The notes under the pieces were generated by a model. It did not search any database. It was not told where the DNA came from and saw nothing but the letters and a program-made list of their open reading frames with translations. Of a DNA stretch of 64,000 nt, positions 15,090-43,745 are shown in pieces. The number at the start of each line of letters is the position of its first letter. Position 1 is the stretch's first letter. A program made the position numbers and the translations under genes. The stretch comes from Tissierellia bacterium (GTDB lineage: Bacteria; Bacillota; Clostridia; Tissierellales; Peptoniphilaceae): assembly GCA_030528125.1 (NCBI GenBank), contig JAUMZM010000001.1:1-64000 (forward strand). Reading direction: 5' to 3'.

Positions 15090-16391
15090 ATGAAAAAGGC
15101 TATTGTATATATAAACCAATTCTTTGCAGGAATTGGAGGAGAAGATAAAGCAGATTATAAGCCAGAAATAAAAAACGAGCTTATAGGCCCTGTAGCAGCA
15201 TTTGATAAAATGCTAGATGCTACAGTAACTCATACAATAATTTGTGGAGATAATTATATGGGCTCTAATCCAGAAAAGGCTACTGAAGAGATACTAGAAT
15301 TTTTGGAAGGATTAGATTTTGATTTGTTCTTAGCAGGTCCAGCATTTCAAGCAGGACGTTATGGTGTAGCTTGTGGTAGAATATGCAAAGCTGTAAAAGA
15401 CAAATTCAAAGTAAAAGTAATAACATCAATGCATCCAGAAAACCCTGGAGCAGAAATGTATAGAAAAGACATGGTTATCTTTAAAGGTGGAAAATCTGCA
15501 AGAGATATGAGAAAAGATATAAAGAAAATGGCAGATTACGCTAATAGATACTTAAATGGAGAACAATTAGGTTCAGCAGAAGAGGAAGGATACTTCCCAC
15601 AAGGAATAAGAATACAATATTATAATCCAGAAATGAAAACAGCTGCTCAAAGAGGAGTAGAAATGTTAATTAAAAAATTAAATGGAGAAGACTTTGTAAC
15701 AGAACTTCCTATTCCTAAAAAAGAAATAGTAAGTCCAGCTAAACCTATTAAAGATCTTAAAAACGCTAAGATTGCAGTAATGACAACAGGAGGAATTGTT
15801 CCAGTAGATAATCGAGATAGAATCCAATCAGCATCTGCGACTAGATGGGGAAAATATGATATATCTGGAATGGATAGATTAAAATCTGGAGAATTTAAGA
15901 CAATACATGCAGGATTTGATCCAGCAGCAGCAAATGCTGATCCTAATGTTATTATGCCAATAGATGTATTAAAAGATATGGAAGGAAATGTCTTTGGTAA
16001 ATTACATAAATATTTCTATGCAACAGTAGGTACAGGAACTACTCAAGCAGAAGCTGAGAGAATGGCAACAGAGATTCTTCGTGAATTGAAAGAAGCCAAA
16101 GTTGACGGCGTTATAATGACAAGTACCTGAGGTACCTGTACACGCTGCGGTGCAGCAATGGCAAATGTAATTGAAAAAGCAGGAATTCCAATAGTTCAAA
16201 TGTGTAACTTAGTTCCAGTAGCTCAATCATTAGGTGTTAACAAAATAGTTCCAACTATCTCTATACCTTATCCATTAGGAGATCCTTCAACAGGTAAGGA
16301 TGTACAATGGAATCTAAGATATCATAGAGTAAATGTAGCATTAAATGCATTGACAGAAGAAATAGAAGAACCAAAAGTTTATGCAGTATAA
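15090..16391 (+). CDS. grdH: Betaine/sarcosine/glycine reductase component B selenoprotein (GrdH/GrdF/GrdB type)
   Basis: Selenocysteine subunit of component B. The frame is interrupted by a TGA at 16128-16130 in the context M-T-S-T-TGA-G-T-C-T-R-C-G-A-A-M, which is the family's U-x-x-C-x-x-C motif. Reading TGA as selenocysteine gives 433 residues, the usual length for GrdB/F/H, with homology continuing on both sides (FNVAMTTGG-like block before; MCNLVPVAQSLGVNKIVPTISIPYPLGD after). It should not be annotated as two genes. The start ATG 15090 has TTAGGAG upstream. Components A (GrdA), C (GrdC/D) and the selenocysteine machinery are not in this window and must be elsewhere. Choice of grdH over grdF/grdB rests on the adjacent BCCT transporter. 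Confidence 0.82.
16128..16156 (+). promoter_or_regulatory. Selenocysteine codon and bacterial SECIS-like hairpin
   Basis: Right after the TGA, GCTGC (16144-16148) and GCAGC (16152-16156) form a stem with the apical triplet GGT. The spacing of about 18-20 bases from the TGA and a GGU in the loop resemble the SelB-binding hairpin of bacterial selenoprotein mRNAs. Confidence 0.65.
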
Positions 16392-37197: not shown

Positions 37198-38952
37198 TTA
37201 TTTATTTTCTTCATCTATCAAATCTTTAAGTATTGGTTGATCTTCTAAATCATTTTCTTTTAGATATTCATTGATTTCTTCTTTTGAGAAGTTATCTGGA
37301 TTGATTTTCATAGCTGCTGTATCTAGTGGATCTTCGTATACAACATGTGCATCTATTAATATTGGCTTGTCATTTCCTTGTTTATTCAATCTAATAGCTT
37401 CTTTGAATGCATCATCAAGTTCTTTTTTGTTATTTACATTAAATCCTATAGCTCCTAAGCCTTCTCCAACTTTTGCCCAGTTGGCATATTGAATATCAAC
37501 TCCAAAATCATCATTGAAATTTTGTAATTGAGAATGCTTTATAAAGCCTAGACTCATATCTGTTATTACAACATTTATTATTGGCATCTTGTATTTTGCT
37601 TGAGTTAGAATTTCTTGGTTATTCATTGCAAATCCGCCATCTCCTACGATTGACCATATTTGTCTATCAGGATATTGTAGATAAGCTCCTATAGCTGCTG
37701 GAGTAGAATATCCTAATGTAGCAAACCAGCTAGACATTGTAAATTTGTGTTTCCCATATAATGGAAGGATTCTTATAGAATGTGCCTTGTTGTTGCCAAC
37801 ACCAAATGCATATACTGCATCATCTGTAGAATATTCTTTGATTTTTCTTATAACTGATTCATAATATATTACATCAGATTCTCTATTAGCTTGTTTTTCA
37901 AGATATTTATTCCAATTTTCCATATCTTTTCTCGCAGCTTTTATAAATGAGTCTTCATTCCTACTTAATCCAGTATCTAAGAGTGATTTAAGGAAGTCTC
38001 CAGAATCTGCAACTAATGATTTATAAGCTTTTAATTGTCTGCCGATTTCCCTAAAGCTGTTATTTATTTGTATAACTTTAGTTGATTGTGGCCAGAATCT
38101 AGCAAATGGATGTGAAGATCCTATAAATACGATAAGATCTGAACTAAATATCATTTCATTTGCAGGCTTTGTTCCCAATCTACCAAATGCTCCCATGAAA
38201 TTCTTGTGATTTGCAGGGAATGATAATCCTATAGAAGGTGCAGAAGTTACTACTGGTAAGTTGAATTTCTCAGAAACCTCTACTGCTAAATCCATATAAT
38301 CTTTTACTCCAAGTCCTAAATATAAGATTGGTCTTTGAGCATCTTTGATTTCATTTGCTATTGAATTTACCATTTCTTTGTCAATTTCGTAATGTTTAGC
38401 TCCAGGAATTTCTTTAGTAGCTCCTTTAGATGGTTCATATTCAATCTCTTCTTCCATAAAATCATTATGAAGTATAAGAACTGCAGGTCCTTTTCTTTCA
38501 AAAGCTGTTCTTATTGCATCATTTACCATGTATGGAATTTGATTAGCATTCATTGCTTTTCCATTATATACAGATACATTTTCAAAAAATGGCAACATCT
38601 CTGTTTCTTGGAAAGCGTGAGTGTTCTGATTAGATGAATCAGATTGAGCAACAATTGCAAGCATTGGCGATCCATCCATCAATGCATCAAAAAGTCCATT
38701 TGTCAAATTAGTTGATCCAGGTCCACCTGATCCAAAGGCTACTCCGATTTTGCCTGTAAGCTTGTATTCTGCTGATGCTGCCATAGATCCTGCAGATTCA
38801 TGTCTTACTTGAATATATTTAACTCCGTTATTATCTTCATCTCTAAGCGCATTCATCATTCCATTTAATGATGAACCAGGGATTCCATATATATGATTTA
38901 CTCCCCAAAGCTTCAATTCTTTTAGTAATGCTTTAGCTGCTGTAATTTTCAT
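37198..38952 (-). CDS. Pyruvate oxidase (SpxB/Pox-like, thiamine-diphosphate enzyme)
   Basis: A 584-residue three-domain ThDP flavoenzyme. GVNHIYGIPGSSLNG and VRHESAG (catalytic Glu) open the N-terminal domain; the ThDP/magnesium motif is GDGGFAMNNQEILTQAKYKMPIINVV. It resembles pyruvate oxidases of lactic acid bacteria (pyruvate + Pi + O2 to acetyl phosphate + CO2 + H2O2) more than acetolactate synthase. In an anaerobe it would consume oxygen and make peroxide. It is divergent from the flavin/ferredoxin-macrodomain-sirtuin operon and shares about 240 bases of control region with it. Exact electron acceptor is not provable here. Confidence 0.75.
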   Translation of the reverse strand: MKITAAKALLKELKLWGVNHIYGIPGSSLNGMMNALRDEDNNGVKYIQVRHESAGSMAASAEYKLTGKIGVAFGSGGPGSTNLTNGLFDALMDGSPMLAIVAQSDSSNQNTHAFQETEMLPFFENVSVYNGKAMNANQIPYMVNDAIRTAFERKGPAVLILHNDFMEEEIEYEPSKGATKEIPGAKHYEIDKEMVNSIANEIKDAQRPILYLGLGVKDYMDLAVEVSEKFNLPVVTSAPSIGLSFPANHKNFMGAFGRLGTKPANEMIFSSDLIVFIGSSHPFARFWPQSTKVIQINNSFREIGRQLKAYKSLVADSGDFLKSLLDTGLSRNEDSFIKAARKDMENWNKYLEKQANRESDVIYYESVIRKIKEYSTDDAVYAFGVGNNKAHSIRILPLYGKHKFTMSSWFATLGYSTPAAIGAYLQYPDRQIWSIVGDGGFAMNNQEILTQAKYKMPIINVVITDMSLGFIKHSQLQNFNDDFGVDIQYANWAKVGEGLGAIGFNVNNKKELDDAFKEAIRLNKQGNDKPILIDAHVVYEDPLDTAAMKINPDNFSKEEINEYLKENDLEDQPILKDLIDEENK

Positions 38953-39191
38953 AATAACCTCTTTTCTTTAATTTTTTGTTTATTTAAAATTCGTGTGTTT
39001 CTTTTTACATATATAACTTAACTAGTTACATATTAGTTTTACCCTAAACTAAATTTGTTAAACAAAAAATAAATTTTTCTTTAGAATTAACAAAAGATTA
39101 TATAGGTATAATGCTTATGTTTATGTAAAATTTTATGTATTGGGTAAAATTCAAATATAACAATAGTATAGAAATATAAAGGGTGGTGAAA
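38953..39191. promoter_or_regulatory. Divergent control region of pyruvate oxidase and sirtuin operon
   Basis: A+T-rich region carrying a ten-base palindrome TAACTAGTTA (39019-39028) and an inverted pair TTTTACCC (39037-39044) and GGGTAAAA (39142-39149), about 100 bases apart, each nearer one of the two divergent genes. These could be operators of a shared regulator. No exact Rex or Fur box was recognised. Confidence 0.35.
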
Positions 39192-39812
39192 ATGGATACA
39201 AGAGATTATTTAAAGTACATAGTTGATGAAATTCATACTGTTATTGTTGCAACCGTTGATAAAGAAGGACTTCCTGTAACTTCTGCAATTGATATTATGG
39301 ATTTTGATGATGAGAGTTTGTATTTTCTAACTGCAAAGGGCAAGGGATTCTACGATAGATTAAAGGACAAAGAATTCTTAGCTTTTACTGCAATAAAAGG
39401 AGAAGATACTCTATCAAGTGTAGCTATATCTTTAAAAGGCAAGGTTAGAGAAATTGGCAATGAGAAGATTCCATATTTATTTGAGAAAAATTCCTATATG
39501 AATTCGATCTATCCAACAGAAAAGTCAAGAGCTCAATTAACGGTATTTCAAATATATGAAGGACAAGGTGAGTGGTTTGACTTATCCAAAAAGCCTATAG
39601 AAAGAGCGACTTTTGTATTTGGAGATATTATAAAGAAGGAATCTGGGTATTATATAAATGAAAATTGTATAGGATGTGGCAAATGTGTTGAGGTTTGTCC
39701 ACAAAAATGTATCGAAGAAGAACAAGTTCCATTCGTTATAGAAAACAATCATTGTCTAAATTGCGGAAACTGTATGGATGTATGTCCATATAATGCAGTA
39801 GAAAGAAGGTAG
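39192..39812 (+). CDS. PNPOx-like flavin-binding protein fused to a 2[4Fe-4S] ferredoxin
   Basis: About 206 residues. The first 140 form a split-barrel pyridoxamine-phosphate-oxidase-like domain (VIVATVDKEGLPVTSAIDIM... LYFLTAKGKGFYDRLK), which usually binds FMN or F420. The C-terminal part has two full [4Fe-4S] motifs, CIGCGKCVEVCP and CLNCGNCMDVCP. The fusion predicts electron transfer between ferredoxin clusters and a bound flavin. ATG 39192 is chosen after GGGTGGTG. It is the first gene of a run with a macrodomain protein two bases on and a sirtuin, so it may be the partner or target of that ADP-ribosylation pair. Confidence 0.8.
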   Translation: MDTRDYLKYIVDEIHTVIVATVDKEGLPVTSAIDIMDFDDESLYFLTAKGKGFYDRLKDKEFLAFTAIKGEDTLSSVAISLKGKVREIGNEKIPYLFEKNSYMNSIYPTEKSRAQLTVFQIYEGQGEWFDLSKKPIERATFVFGDIIKKESGYYINENCIGCGKCVEVCPQKCIEEEQVPFVIENNHCLNCGNCMDVCPYNAVERR

Positions 39813-39814
39813 AA

Positions 39815-40615
39815 ATGGATAACAAACAAATAGATAGACTAAATTATCTTGTAGATGAATTCATAGCTGATTCCGATAGTTACAAAGATATTGAAAATCC
39901 CAGTAGCATAGAAGATAAAAAAAGAATCTTGCGCTCTCTTATGAATATTAGATTGCCAAAGAAAATGAAAGATGAAGTCATAGAAGTTCAAGATGAATAC
40001 TTAAAAGAAATAGCTAGAGAAAAGGGAATTGTAGAGCTTTCTGATATTCCAGTTATTAAAGACAACATATCTATCTGGCAAGGAGATATAACAAGACTTA
40101 AAGTAGGAGCTATTGTAAATGCTGCAAATTCGATGATGCTTGGTTGCTTTGTTCCAATGCATATTTGTATTGATAACCAAATCCATACTTTTGCAGGTAT
40201 ACAGCTTAGACAAGAATGCAACGATAATATGGAAAAGCTTAGAGAAAAGTACGGCGATGACTACAGACAGCCTACATCAGTTCCTATGCTTACAGATGCT
40301 TACAATCTTCCAGCAGATAAGGTAATTCATGTAGTAGGGCCAATTGTAGGTAGCAAACTTACCGAAAGCTTAGAAGATGACCTAGCAAATTGCTATAGGA
40401 ATATACTTGATATGTGCTTAGAAAATTCAATAAAAAGCGTAGCTTTCTGTTGCATATCAACAGGTGTATTTAATTTTCCTAATAAAAGAGCAGCAGAAAT
40501 TGCAACAGAAACTGTTAAGAAATGGAATTCCAACAATCCAAATGCTATGGATAGAATAATTTTCAATGTATTTAGCGACAAAGATAGAAGATATTATGAA
40601 GAAATATTACTATAA
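39815..40615 (+). CDS. Zinc-type macrodomain ADP-ribosyl hydrolase (SirTM-associated)
   Basis: A 266-residue protein with a helical N-terminal extension of about 85 residues, then a macrodomain: WQGDITRLKVGAIVNAANSMMLGC (residues 88-111), the family's MLGCFVPMHICIDNQIH block with Cys111, His116 and Cys118 as likely zinc ligands, and CISTGVFNFP as the ribose loop. This extended, zinc-binding class is the one found beside SirTM in staphylococci and streptococci, where it removes ADP-ribose from proteins. It starts two bases after the flavoprotein-ferredoxin stop and overlaps the sirtuin gene. Confidence 0.82.
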   Translation: MDNKQIDRLNYLVDEFIADSDSYKDIENPSSIEDKKRILRSLMNIRLPKKMKDEVIEVQDEYLKEIAREKGIVELSDIPVIKDNISIWQGDITRLKVGAIVNAANSMMLGCFVPMHICIDNQIHTFAGIQLRQECNDNMEKLREKYGDDYRQPTSVPMLTDAYNLPADKVIHVVGPIVGSKLTESLEDDLANCYRNILDMCLENSIKSVAFCCISTGVFNFPNKRAAEIATETVKKWNSNNPNAMDRIIFNVFSDKDRRYYEEILL

Positions 40616-41600
40616 TAAAGACGGATACAGACAAACCATTAAAAATGGTATCAATTCACTAAGTGAATTTTCAAAATTAGTAAGCGGTAATGATTATTCA
40701 CAACAAGATAAGATAAAATTACTTAAAAAAAGAATAGAAAATGCAGATGCCATTGTAATAGGTGGAGGATCTGGCTTATCAACTTCTGCAGGACTTGTGT
40801 ATGATGGAGAAAGATTTGATAGGTACTTTTTCGATTTCAAAGAAAAATATGGAATAAATAATATATATGCCGGCGGATTCTATAATTTTCCCAAAAGTGA
40901 GATAAAATGGGCATGGTGGGCAAGACATATTTATTTTAATAGATATGTAAAATCTCCCAAACCAGTCTATGAAAATCTATTTTCGATCGTAGAAGATAAG
41001 GATTATTTTGTTATAACCACTAATGTCGATCATAGATTCCAAATGGCAGGATTTGATAAAAATAGGATATTCTATACTCAAGGAGATTATGGACTTTTCC
41101 AAAGTGTAAATCCTTCATTAAAAAAGACCTATGACAACGAGAAATGGGTAATGGAAGCTATGAAGGCACAAGGATTTGTAAAAGATTCTAATGGTGAATT
41201 TAATGTAGCAGATGACAAAAATATACTTATGGAAATTCCAAGCGATATGATTCCAAGATGCCCAGATGATAATTCTAATGTAAGATTAAATCTTAGAGAA
41301 GATGAGGATTTTGTGGAAGATGACGGTTGGAATGAGGCATCTTATAGATACTATGATTTTCTTACAAAACACAAAGATGATAAAGTGGTGTATCTTGAGT
41401 TAGGTGTTGGGAAAAATACCCCTGTTATAATCAAATATCCATTTTGGCAAATGACTTTAGAAAATAAAAACGCTAGTTATATTTGTATAAATTATAATGA
41501 AGCTCTCTGTCCAAGAGAAATTGAGAATAGAAGTATTTGTATTAATGAAGATATCGGAGATATTTTAGATAAGGTGCTCAAATTAAATTCTAAAAACTAA
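40596..41600 (+). CDS. Class M sirtuin (SirTM), protein ADP-ribosyltransferase
   Basis: About 334 residues. The NAD fold is shown by AIVIGGGSGLSTSAGLVYDG (about 52-71) and TTNVDHRFQMAGFDKNRIFYTQGDYG (about 141-166). The usual catalytic His of deacetylase sirtuins is replaced by Gln in TQGDYG, and the normal four-Cys zinc ribbon is reduced (only IPRCPDD is seen), both class M features; such enzymes ADP-ribosylate rather than deacetylate. ATG 40596 (MKKYYYNKDG) overlaps the macrodomain gene by 20 bases; an upstream TTG-type start at 40566 is less likely. In characterised operons the target is lipoylated GcvH-L, absent here. Confidence 0.8.
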   Translation: MKKYYYNKDGYRQTIKNGINSLSEFSKLVSGNDYSQQDKIKLLKKRIENADAIVIGGGSGLSTSAGLVYDGERFDRYFFDFKEKYGINNIYAGGFYNFPKSEIKWAWWARHIYFNRYVKSPKPVYENLFSIVEDKDYFVITTNVDHRFQMAGFDKNRIFYTQGDYGLFQSVNPSLKKTYDNEKWVMEAMKAQGFVKDSNGEFNVADDKNILMEIPSDMIPRCPDDNSNVRLNLREDEDFVEDDGWNEASYRYYDFLTKHKDDKVVYLELGVGKNTPVIIKYPFWQMTLENKNASYICINYNEALCPREIENRSICINEDIGDILDKVLKLNSKN

Positions 41601-41667
41601 ATACTAGTAAAAACAAGACTTTATAGGATAATTATTATATAAATTCTAAAGAAGGGAGAATTCAATA

Positions 41668-42069
41668 ATGAATGAAGTAATGGAATTTTTAGGACAAGCT
41701 CCAGCAGCATTTGCAACTTTGAAAGAGGATAAACCAAGAGTTCGTTTTTTGGGTTTTAAAATGGAGGATAATGGAAATTTATATTTTTTAACAGATAAGA
41801 GAAAAAATGTATACCAAGAACTTGTCAAAAACAATAATGTAGAAATATGCTCTTTTCCTAACAAAGACAATCATTGGATAAGAATTGAAGGAAAAGTAGA
41901 GTTTGTAGAAGATGTTGAACTTAACAAAAAAGCTTTCTCAATATTGCCAATACTTGAACAAGCTTATAAGAGCCCTGATAATGAAAATATAGTTTTACTT
42001 AAAATTATAGATATGAATATTAGAAAATATTCAATGAAAGGTGAAGAAGGAACTTTATCTTTTAATTAA
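41668..42069 (+). CDS. Small PNPOx-like flavin-binding protein
   Basis: A 133-residue split-barrel protein: FATLKEDKPRVRFLGFKMEDNGNLYFLTDKRKNVYQELVKN matches the pyridoxamine-phosphate-oxidase-like/NimA-type group, with a WIRIEGKVEF strand. It may bind FMN; the substrate is unknown. A GAAGGGAG precedes the ATG. It lies 67 bases after the sirtuin on the same strand and before a terminator, so it probably belongs to the same transcription unit and resembles the first domain of that unit's first gene. Confidence 0.75.
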   Translation: MNEVMEFLGQAPAAFATLKEDKPRVRFLGFKMEDNGNLYFLTDKRKNVYQELVKNNNVEICSFPNKDNHWIRIEGKVEFVEDVELNKKAFSILPILEQAYKSPDNENIVLLKIIDMNIRKYSMKGEEGTLSFN

Positions 42070-42086
42070 TATATTAAAAAATACTT

Positions 42087-42131
42087 TATACTGATCTAGA
42101 TTGGTTTTCCAATTTGGATCAGTATTTTTTG
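42087..42131 (+). terminator. Terminator of the flavoprotein-macrodomain-sirtuin unit
   Basis: ATACTGATC...GATTGG and CCAATTTGGATCAGTAT form a long interrupted stem followed by six Ts. Confidence 0.8.
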
Positions 42132-42290: not shown

Positions 42291-43745
42291 ATGGAACAAA
42301 GTATAGATCTTACAAAGACAGTTTATAATCTTGTAAATGAATATCCTAGGTTAAAAGACATCTTATATGATTTGGGATTTAGCGAATTAAAGAAAAAGTC
42401 AATGCTAAATTCAATGGCAAAACTTGTAACTTTGCCAAAGGCATCCAAAGTAAAAAAGATACCAATGGATAAAGTAATAGAAACACTTAAAGATAACGGA
42501 TTTTCAGTTAAAGGATATAATATCGATACAAAAGAAAAAGAGGATAAAAAATTAGTAAAAATTAGTAATAAAACTTCTACAGATAAATTAAAATCTTATC
42601 TTAAACGTCTAAGTGATGGAGAAGATCTAGAATCTGTACGCAAAGACTTCGTAGAAAATTTCAAGTCGGTTGACTCAAAAGAAATTGTAAATGCAGAACA
42701 AGAACTTCTAAAAGAAGGCACTCCACTTAATGAAGTACAAAAGTTATGTGATGTGCATTCAGCTTTATTTCATGGAATGACTACAAATGAAAGAGATATA
42801 GAAATGAGAAATCTCATAGAAGAGGAAAAGGAAGCCTTCAAAAAGACTTCAGACGAAAAGTACGAAAGACTAAAAAATACCGTAGGGCATCCAATATATA
42901 CATTAACAAGAGAAAATGATGAGCTTTCTAAGATATTAGATAATTTAGAAGATTTAGATACAGATGAGATTTTCAAAAAGATAGAGGATATATCAACTCA
43001 TTATGCAAAAAAGGGAGGTCTTTTATATCCAATTCTAAAAGTAAAATATGGAATTTCTGGACCATCAGATGTTATGTGGACAGTTGATGATGAGATTAGA
43101 GATAGTATTAGCTTATTAAGAAAAAGTAAAATTTATGATGAGAATTTCAAAGAAGAGTTAGACAAAGTTTTAAAAAGAGCAAAAGAGATGATCTATAAAG
43201 AAGAAGCTATTCTTTTTCCTATATGTTCTGTTAACTTTAGTGAAGAAGAGTGGATTTTGATTTACAAAGATTTAAAAGGTTACAAAGAATCCTTTGGTGT
43301 AGAAAATGAAAGATGGGATCTTGCAGAAAATTATAAATCAAAAGAAAAAGAAAGTGTGGAAGGTGAAGTAGTAATGCCAGGTGGACACCTTAAAGTATCT
43401 GAGCTTACAGCTTTACTAAATACACTACCACTTGAGATTAGTTTCGTTGATAAGGATGATATCAATAGATTCTTTAATGAAGGAGATAAAATATTCAATC
43501 GTCCTAGCACTGCAATTGATAGAAAAGTATTCTCTTGTCATTCTCCTAAGATTGAACCAATGGTTCATCAAATTATAGATAGTTTTAGAAGTGGAGAGAA
43601 AGATTCATTTCCTGTATGGATGGAAAAGAAAGGACATAGCGTTCTTGTAAATTATCTTGCAGTAAGAGATAAAGATAATAATTATCTTGGAACACTTGAA
43701 ATCGTACAAGATATGCAAGATATAAAAGAACATTTTACAAAATAA
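42291..43745 (+). CDS. DUF1858-DUF438-PAS protein (hemerythrin-like region)
   Basis: A 484-residue soluble protein in four parts: DUF1858 (about 5-60, TVYNLVNEYPRLKDILYDLGF), DUF438 (about 95-165), a helical region with histidines and glutamates spaced like a hemerythrin-type domain (about 170-330; LCDVHSALFHG, ISTHYAKKGGLLYP, KEEAILFP), and a PAS domain (about 365-480, LPLEISFVDKDDINRFFNEGDKIFNRP). Such proteins in anaerobes are thought to sense oxygen or nitric oxide, which is inference. AAGGAG precedes ATG. Monocistronic. Confidence 0.78.
   Translation: MEQSIDLTKTVYNLVNEYPRLKDILYDLGFSELKKKSMLNSMAKLVTLPKASKVKKIPMDKVIETLKDNGFSVKGYNIDTKEKEDKKLVKISNKTSTDKLKSYLKRLSDGEDLESVRKDFVENFKSVDSKEIVNAEQELLKEGTPLNEVQKLCDVHSALFHGMTTNERDIEMRNLIEEEKEAFKKTSDEKYERLKNTVGHPIYTLTRENDELSKILDNLEDLDTDEIFKKIEDISTHYAKKGGLLYPILKVKYGISGPSDVMWTVDDEIRDSISLLRKSKIYDENFKEELDKVLKRAKEMIYKEEAILFPICSVNFSEEEWILIYKDLKGYKESFGVENERWDLAENYKSKEKESVEGEVVMPGGHLKVSELTALLNTLPLEISFVDKDDINRFFNEGDKIFNRPSTAIDRKVFSCHSPKIEPMVHQIIDSFRSGEKDSFPVWMEKKGHSVLVNYLAVRDKDNNYLGTLEIVQDMQDIKEHFTK

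Follow-up and report, generated by a model that had tools for sequence, protein, structure and literature searches.

A PNPOx-ferredoxin gene beside a class M sirtuin and zinc macrodomain pair: a candidate target for reversible ADP-ribosylation

Class M sirtuins (SirTM), in which Gln replaces the catalytic His, and the zinc macrodomains (Zn-Macro) with which they are paired, were defined in 2015 (Rack 2015, PMC4518038). Some pairs are within extended operons that also encode GcvH-L and LplA2, and there are also lone pairs with unknown targets (PMC4518038; Ariza 2024, PMC11490716). As of 2024 GcvH-L was the only known SirTM target, other SirTM/Zn-Macro targets being unknown, and a macrodomain taken from a lone pair was unable to act on GcvH-L (PMC11490716). 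The linkages that Zn-Macros cleave are ADP-ribosyl-cysteine and acidic ones (PMC11490716). In streptococci the extended operon's OYE is a binding partner of lipoylated GcvH-L, though neither OYE nor LLM, which is also encoded there, is modified (PMC4518038).

The locus considered here is in a 64,000-nucleotide stretch of the genome of a Tissierellia bacterium (the window). It has the same pair, in the same order and with overlapping genes, as the extended operon of Staphylococcus and Streptococcus (GcvH-L, Zn-Macro, SirTM, LplA2, OYE/LLM), and in both a gene for a small redox carrier is directly 5′ of the macrodomain gene and flavin oxidoreductases are in the neighbourhood. However, the carrier in the window is not a lipoyl protein but a fusion of a PNPOx-like domain with a 2[4Fe-4S] ferredoxin, named PNPFd here; lipoate ligase and GcvH are absent, as are OYE and LLM from the identified neighbours. 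The absence of GcvH-L and LplA2 is shared with the lone pairs of Enterococcus faecalis, Treponema pedis and Methanobrevibacter oralis (PMC11490716). Those are described as minimal, whereas the window and many of its relatives have PNPFd as a conserved partner, and the relatives' loci have HxlR or Rrf2 regulators. An earlier, sequence-only reading of the locus stressed the absence of GcvH-L and LplA2 and inferred a different target, perhaps PNPFd itself, but the absence was already known for lone pairs (PMC4518038, PMC11490716). The new element is the PNPFd partner, of which no description was found in the literature searched.

Layout of the locus and its proteins

The four genes, PNPFd, Zn-Macro, SirTM and PNP2, are all on the plus strand at 39192–42069, with every feature that the sequence-only reading had described for them. 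A strong intrinsic terminator (42088–42130, plus strand; a 17-bp stem and T-run) follows PNP2 and there is none between the genes, so that the four are likely a single transcription unit. The intergenic region 5′ of it (38953–39191) is presumed to contain the promoter, though a promoter scan gave no more sites than shuffled sequences do. Divergent from the operon across this region is a pyruvate-oxidase-like gene (37198–38952, minus strand) of an H2O2-forming family, which is under the SpxB model cut-off. Just 3′ of the operon, 42291–43745 encodes a DUF1858-DUF438-hemerythrin-PAS protein, plausibly an O2/NO sensor. Elsewhere in the window, at 16131–16168, a selenocysteine insertion element scores over the gathering threshold of Rfam SECIS_4.

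The N-terminal part of PNPFd (39192–39812, plus strand) matches Pfam PNPOx_N (E = 4e-8) and its closest PDB sequence is 2hhz (E = 2e-27); two 4Fe-4S motifs follow with all eight ligand cysteines, which are present in 37 of 37 aligned PNPFd sequences. An AlphaFold model made from four sequences is of low confidence (pLDDT 66, pTM 0.47). It is adequate for the split-barrel fold, with matches to PNPOx and general-stress proteins, and inadequate for surfaces. That fold is common to both PNPOx-like proteins of the window and to NimA/NimC-type and general-stress PNPOx proteins (PDB 2ig6, 2hhz, 2hq7), to which PNPFd adds the ferredoxin domain. Its N-terminal domain probably binds FMN.

The Zn-Macro protein (39815–40615, plus strand) scores 298.5 bits over residues 3–260 against the NCBIfam protein-ADP-ribose hydrolase model PRK04143 (NF003163; cut-off 272 bits). 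The match is full-length and includes the N-terminal three-helix region, and the closest PDB entries are 8rsi and 5kiv. Its motif, GC(111)FVPMH(116)IC(118)ID(120)NQIH(124), fits the zinc loop C-x4-H-x-C and the Dx3H that follows, with C111, H116, C118, D120 and H124 invariant in the alignment (A1); the zinc residues Cys111, His116 and Cys118 are exactly those named earlier. SirTM (40596–41600, plus strand) overlaps the macrodomain gene by 20 nts when its start is taken as the ATG at 40596, the overlap originally reported; the longest open reading frame, of 344 codons, begins at 40566. Its closest PDB entry is 5a3a (SpySirTM; E = 2e-51, residues 51–336), and it has TQGDYG, with QG in place of the catalytic HG. 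The Gln is there, as the sequence-only reading noticed, but this is no oddity, since published class M sirtuins are marked by it; the kinship with 5a3a and the adjacent zinc macrodomain gene also place the protein in that class. By analogy with the published biochemistry of the two families, SirTM would be the transferase and Zn-Macro the hydrolase.

The fourth gene, PNP2 (41668–42069, plus strand), does encode a second, small PNPOx-like protein. It is of the common NimA/NimC type and is less constant than PNPFd or the pair. A PNP2-like gene is at 12 of 121 Zn-Macro loci, a count made with a profile (A5) built partly from these proteins, with only those of G690 and G786 outside it. Where PNP2 recurs it is upstream of PNPFd: the four-gene set is found in G506, in G786 of the same genus and in G783, in the order HxlR, PNP2, PNPFd, Macro, SirTM, with the macrodomain gene broken in G783.

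Searching the window genome (1.82 Mb in 93 contigs, 90.8% complete) bore out the absence of GcvH-L and LplA2 as far as it is sequenced: there is no match to GCV_H or to the lipoate/biotin ligase family BPL_LplA_LipB. The single Biotin_lipoyl match is V-ATPase subunit A. As a positive control, the genomes of Dolosicoccus and Abiotrophia show the gcvH and lplA families, with one neighbouring gcvH/lplA pair each. GcvH is also absent from four other genomes with the PNPFd cassette (G465, G348, Eggerthia and the L060 MAG). Two have a strong GcvH match elsewhere in the genome (G506, G443) and the remainder have marginal matches only.

Conservation of PNPFd beside the pair

Conservation was assessed in 321 genomes of the class and in 398 genomes sampled evenly from the phylum. 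In the class sample PNPFd is in 26 genomes and Zn-Macro in 57, and all 26 of the former carry Zn-Macro (Fisher p = 9e-23; at the genus level 18 of 18, p = 2e-14), while in the phylum sample, with 10 PNPFd and 20 Zn-Macro genomes, seven have both within ~2 kb (p = 3e-8); these p-values are optimistic because the samples contain related genomes. Adjacent to the pair, upstream of it and on the same strand are 23 of the 27 PNPFd genes of the class sample. Over 34 distinct PNPFd genes, 27 are no more than 2.5 kb from a Zn-Macro with SirTM, another is beside a degenerate macrodomain, and six are away from Zn-Macro, three of these in genomes lacking it. Linked PNPFd is always upstream of the macrodomain gene on the same strand, mostly with a gap of 5–28 nts; in G272 the SirTM gene precedes that of the macrodomain (PNPFd-SirTM-Macro) and there is a gap. 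The wider spacings between PNPFd and Zn-Macro include one with an inserted ABC transporter and three with a toxin-antitoxin module (L202:6705–7369 and its equivalents in L205 and L207). Both flanking genes are kept at these three, in one of which RelB/ParE was identified.

The order PNPFd-Macro-SirTM is kept at PNPFd identities of 26–50%. Eggerthia catenaformis, a Spirochaetales MAG and a Clostridia MAG have it too, the first two at identities of 69% and 51%. Divergence of PNPFd matches that of the macrodomain (Mantel r = 0.42, p = 5e-4). Remnants of PNPFd are present in E. yurii and in Peptoniphilus mikwangii, in the latter as 24 residues just upstream of the macrodomain gene; P. mikwangii, like Parvimonas, probably belongs to the family of the window. 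The four-gene order is not conserved in the window's own family, no other genome of which has the intact arrangement. Among 130 genomes of the family there is a single PNPFd homologue, remote and unlinked, and the pair alone recurs (13 of 120 genomes, the window's among them, with some matches remote or lacking a macrodomain). The gene-order survey that the sequence-only reading had called for thus has a divided outcome, with PNPFd-Macro-SirTM recurring in distant taxa and the order absent from the window's own family. Its choice of the flavin/Fe-S protein as partner holds, and as a genuine and repeatedly conserved partner of the pair PNPFd is a sensible candidate target. The three genes almost certainly form a functional module.

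Several loci depart from the usual pair. In the Parvimonas group a ~261-aa gene of no recognized family is between macrodomain and sirtuin genes (L016:10530–11315, L018:8913–9698, L024:10047–10832), and some of these pair copies are broken. SirTM homologues with 47–49% identity occur with no zinc macrodomain nearby in L019, L020 and L021, two of them beside a MerR-like regulator.

The association is one-sided: PNPFd follows the pair, while the pair is often without PNPFd. In the class sample only 22 of 59 Zn-Macros have PNPFd adjacent; with ~60% lacking it, PNPFd cannot be the universal target and other targets must exist. The one-sidedness parallels that of GcvH-L, and a client protein and the system that modifies it would be expected to show it.

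A proposed redox switch and its alternatives

The reading preferred here, held tentatively and just short of probable, is of an ADP-ribosylation cassette for redox stress whose client redox carrier is PNPFd instead of lipoyl-GcvH-L. The cassette would be reversible, of the SirTM/Zn-Macro kind, and would serve in redox or electrophile stress, with SirTM moving ADP-ribose from NAD+ to protein and Zn-Macro taking it off. The likeliest client in this branch would be PNPFd as a flavin/2[4Fe-4S] electron carrier, and that it is ADP-ribosylated is, by analogy, a real possibility though somewhat short of probable. While tagged, PNPFd would be unable to hand electrons to partner flavoenzymes; on stress the tag would be removed and PNPFd would then feed them. 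The proposal of a tagged carrier derives from lipoyl-GcvH-L and its OYE partner, and the on/off logic is likewise drawn by analogy. In favour of this reading are the co-occurrence, adjacency and matching divergence of PNPFd and Zn-Macro, the one-sided association, the absence of a lipoyl system from the window genome, and, at related loci, redox-type regulators and NAMPT (both below). Against it are the many Zn-Macros that have no PNPFd, the six unlinked PNPFd genes, the altered order in G272, the lack of a residue that cleanly separates linked from unlinked PNPFds, and the ACGX peptide as another cysteine-rich candidate.

The main rival, possible but doubtful, is that the genes merely share a regulon: the pair would act on a protein encoded elsewhere, with PNPFd, PNP2, a nitroreductase and others being parallel stress genes under HxlR or Rrf2 control. 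Among the 121 Zn-Macro loci, a few of which are duplicated between collections, HxlR is beside 48, nearly always divergent, and Rrf2 beside 14, whereas the same search of 400 kb of arbitrary regions of the same genomes gave one Rrf2 and otherwise nothing (HxlR 0). The HxlR and Rrf2 proteins are closest to the redox regulators RrpB and HypR, with scores under the cut-offs of those models. PNPFd is at 33 of the loci, the ACGX peptide at 17, a radical SAM enzyme at 17 (most with ACGX), DUF169 at nine and nicotinamide phosphoribosyltransferase (NAMPT) at five. A shared regulon would account for the more than half of Zn-Macro loci without PNPFd and for the variety of redox genes at the site (nitroreductase, NAD(P)H-binding protein, SnoaL, DUF169, PNP2), and it has a precedent in OYE and LLM, co-encoded yet unmodified (PMC4518038). 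Against it, PNPFd alone is so consistently 5–28 nts before the macrodomain gene, and nearly all PNPFd genomes have Zn-Macro. In the window, in contrast to many relatives, neither HxlR nor Rrf2 adjoins 38953–39191, and with no regulator gene shared PNPFd and the pair are still together.

The five NAMPT loci are all of methanogens (Methanobrevibacter; L049, L051, L054, L064, L068). NAMPT beside the pair fits NAD+ consumption, as it would recycle the nicotinamide that SirTM releases. Some of these loci have two copies of SirTM. A conserved ~264-aa protein, often beside HxlR, adjoins the pair in 10 of the 121 loci (for instance L060:4267–5058, L067:3298–4092, L187:462–1253); it has no Pfam match and a weakly metallo-hydrolase-like C-terminus, and the family libraries yielded no name for it.

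A second type of PNPFd, followed by Zn-Macro and SirTM, is at the end of loci for ACGX peptides and their radical SAM enzyme (the ACGX system; NCBIfam TIGR04340, with PGAP names acgA and acgM). No paper on this system or on its link to the pair was found in the literature searched. ACGX-repeat cysteine peptides with a radical SAM/SPASM enzyme are encoded at L120:9168–9530 (minus strand), L113:1299–1484, L244:1449–1643 and other loci. The array runs HxlR, acgA, acgM, nitroreductase, PNPFd, Macro, SirTM, and is also on an annotated Roseburia plasmid. The ACGX peptide, too, is a candidate substrate of SirTM. An unlikely alternative is that PNPFd is not itself tagged but works with the tagged protein, for instance as its redox partner, as OYE does with lipoyl-GcvH-L. 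The binding of OYE to lipoylated GcvH-L (PMC4518038), the position of the Cys-repeat peptide ahead of the other genes of the array, and three loci with ACGX and the pair and no PNPFd (L217, L231, L234) are consistent with such a role. However, the window operon differs from the ACGX system in having no ACGX peptide, radical SAM gene or nitroreductase. No ACG-repeat open reading frame was found in the 64-kb window, no ACGX-like peptide at type I loci and no radical SAM gene among the operon's neighbours, which leaves PNP2 as the only other visible candidate carrier.

The window Zn-Macro is in a supported clade with those of Eggerthia, Peptoniphilus, E. yurii, E. infirmum and COT-073, the clade mates being oral or human-associated anaerobes. 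As the clade spans several families, horizontal spread of the cassette is likely. On a quick Zn-Macro tree PNPFd linkage changes 11 times, only three of the changes being forced by well-supported branches, and the association falls at several places. It is very improbable that PNPFd is with the pair merely by descent or by hitch-hiking on a mobile cassette, for though such transfer and the Roseburia plasmid copy would allow it, the gaps are short, no other gene is constant, and the order persists in Spirochaetota, at 26–50% PNPFd identity and at several places of the tree.

The links to HxlR/Rrf2 and ACGX suggest a common redox-stress theme. More broadly, and rather doubtfully, SirTM/Zn-Macro could be a general gate on redox carriers, with GcvH-L, PNPFd (as in the window) or the ACGX peptide as target according to lineage; if so, the window would have the first ADP-ribosylation switch on an Fe-S flavoprotein. 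Since PNPFd recurs directly 5′ of the pair in distant phyla, almost always in genomes that have Zn-Macro, no better candidate for the target is at hand, and the question can be put to a simple test with named proteins.

Candidate modification sites in PNPFd

If PNPFd is the client, a modified residue might distinguish the PNPFds linked to the pair from those that are unlinked. Among the acidic and Cys residues, none is present in every linked sequence and missing from the unlinked ones. The net charge of PNPFd (−9 to +3) is uninformative with respect to the positive patch reported for macrodomains of the GcvH-L type. The best candidates are E127 and Cys173. E127 is present in 28 of 29 linked sequences, and of the eight unlinked four have E and two D. 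Cys173, an extra cysteine, is in 27 of 29 linked sequences, two linked ones lacking it, and in three of eight unlinked ones (p = 0.002, kinship not corrected for); related ferredoxins likewise have a Cys at this position.
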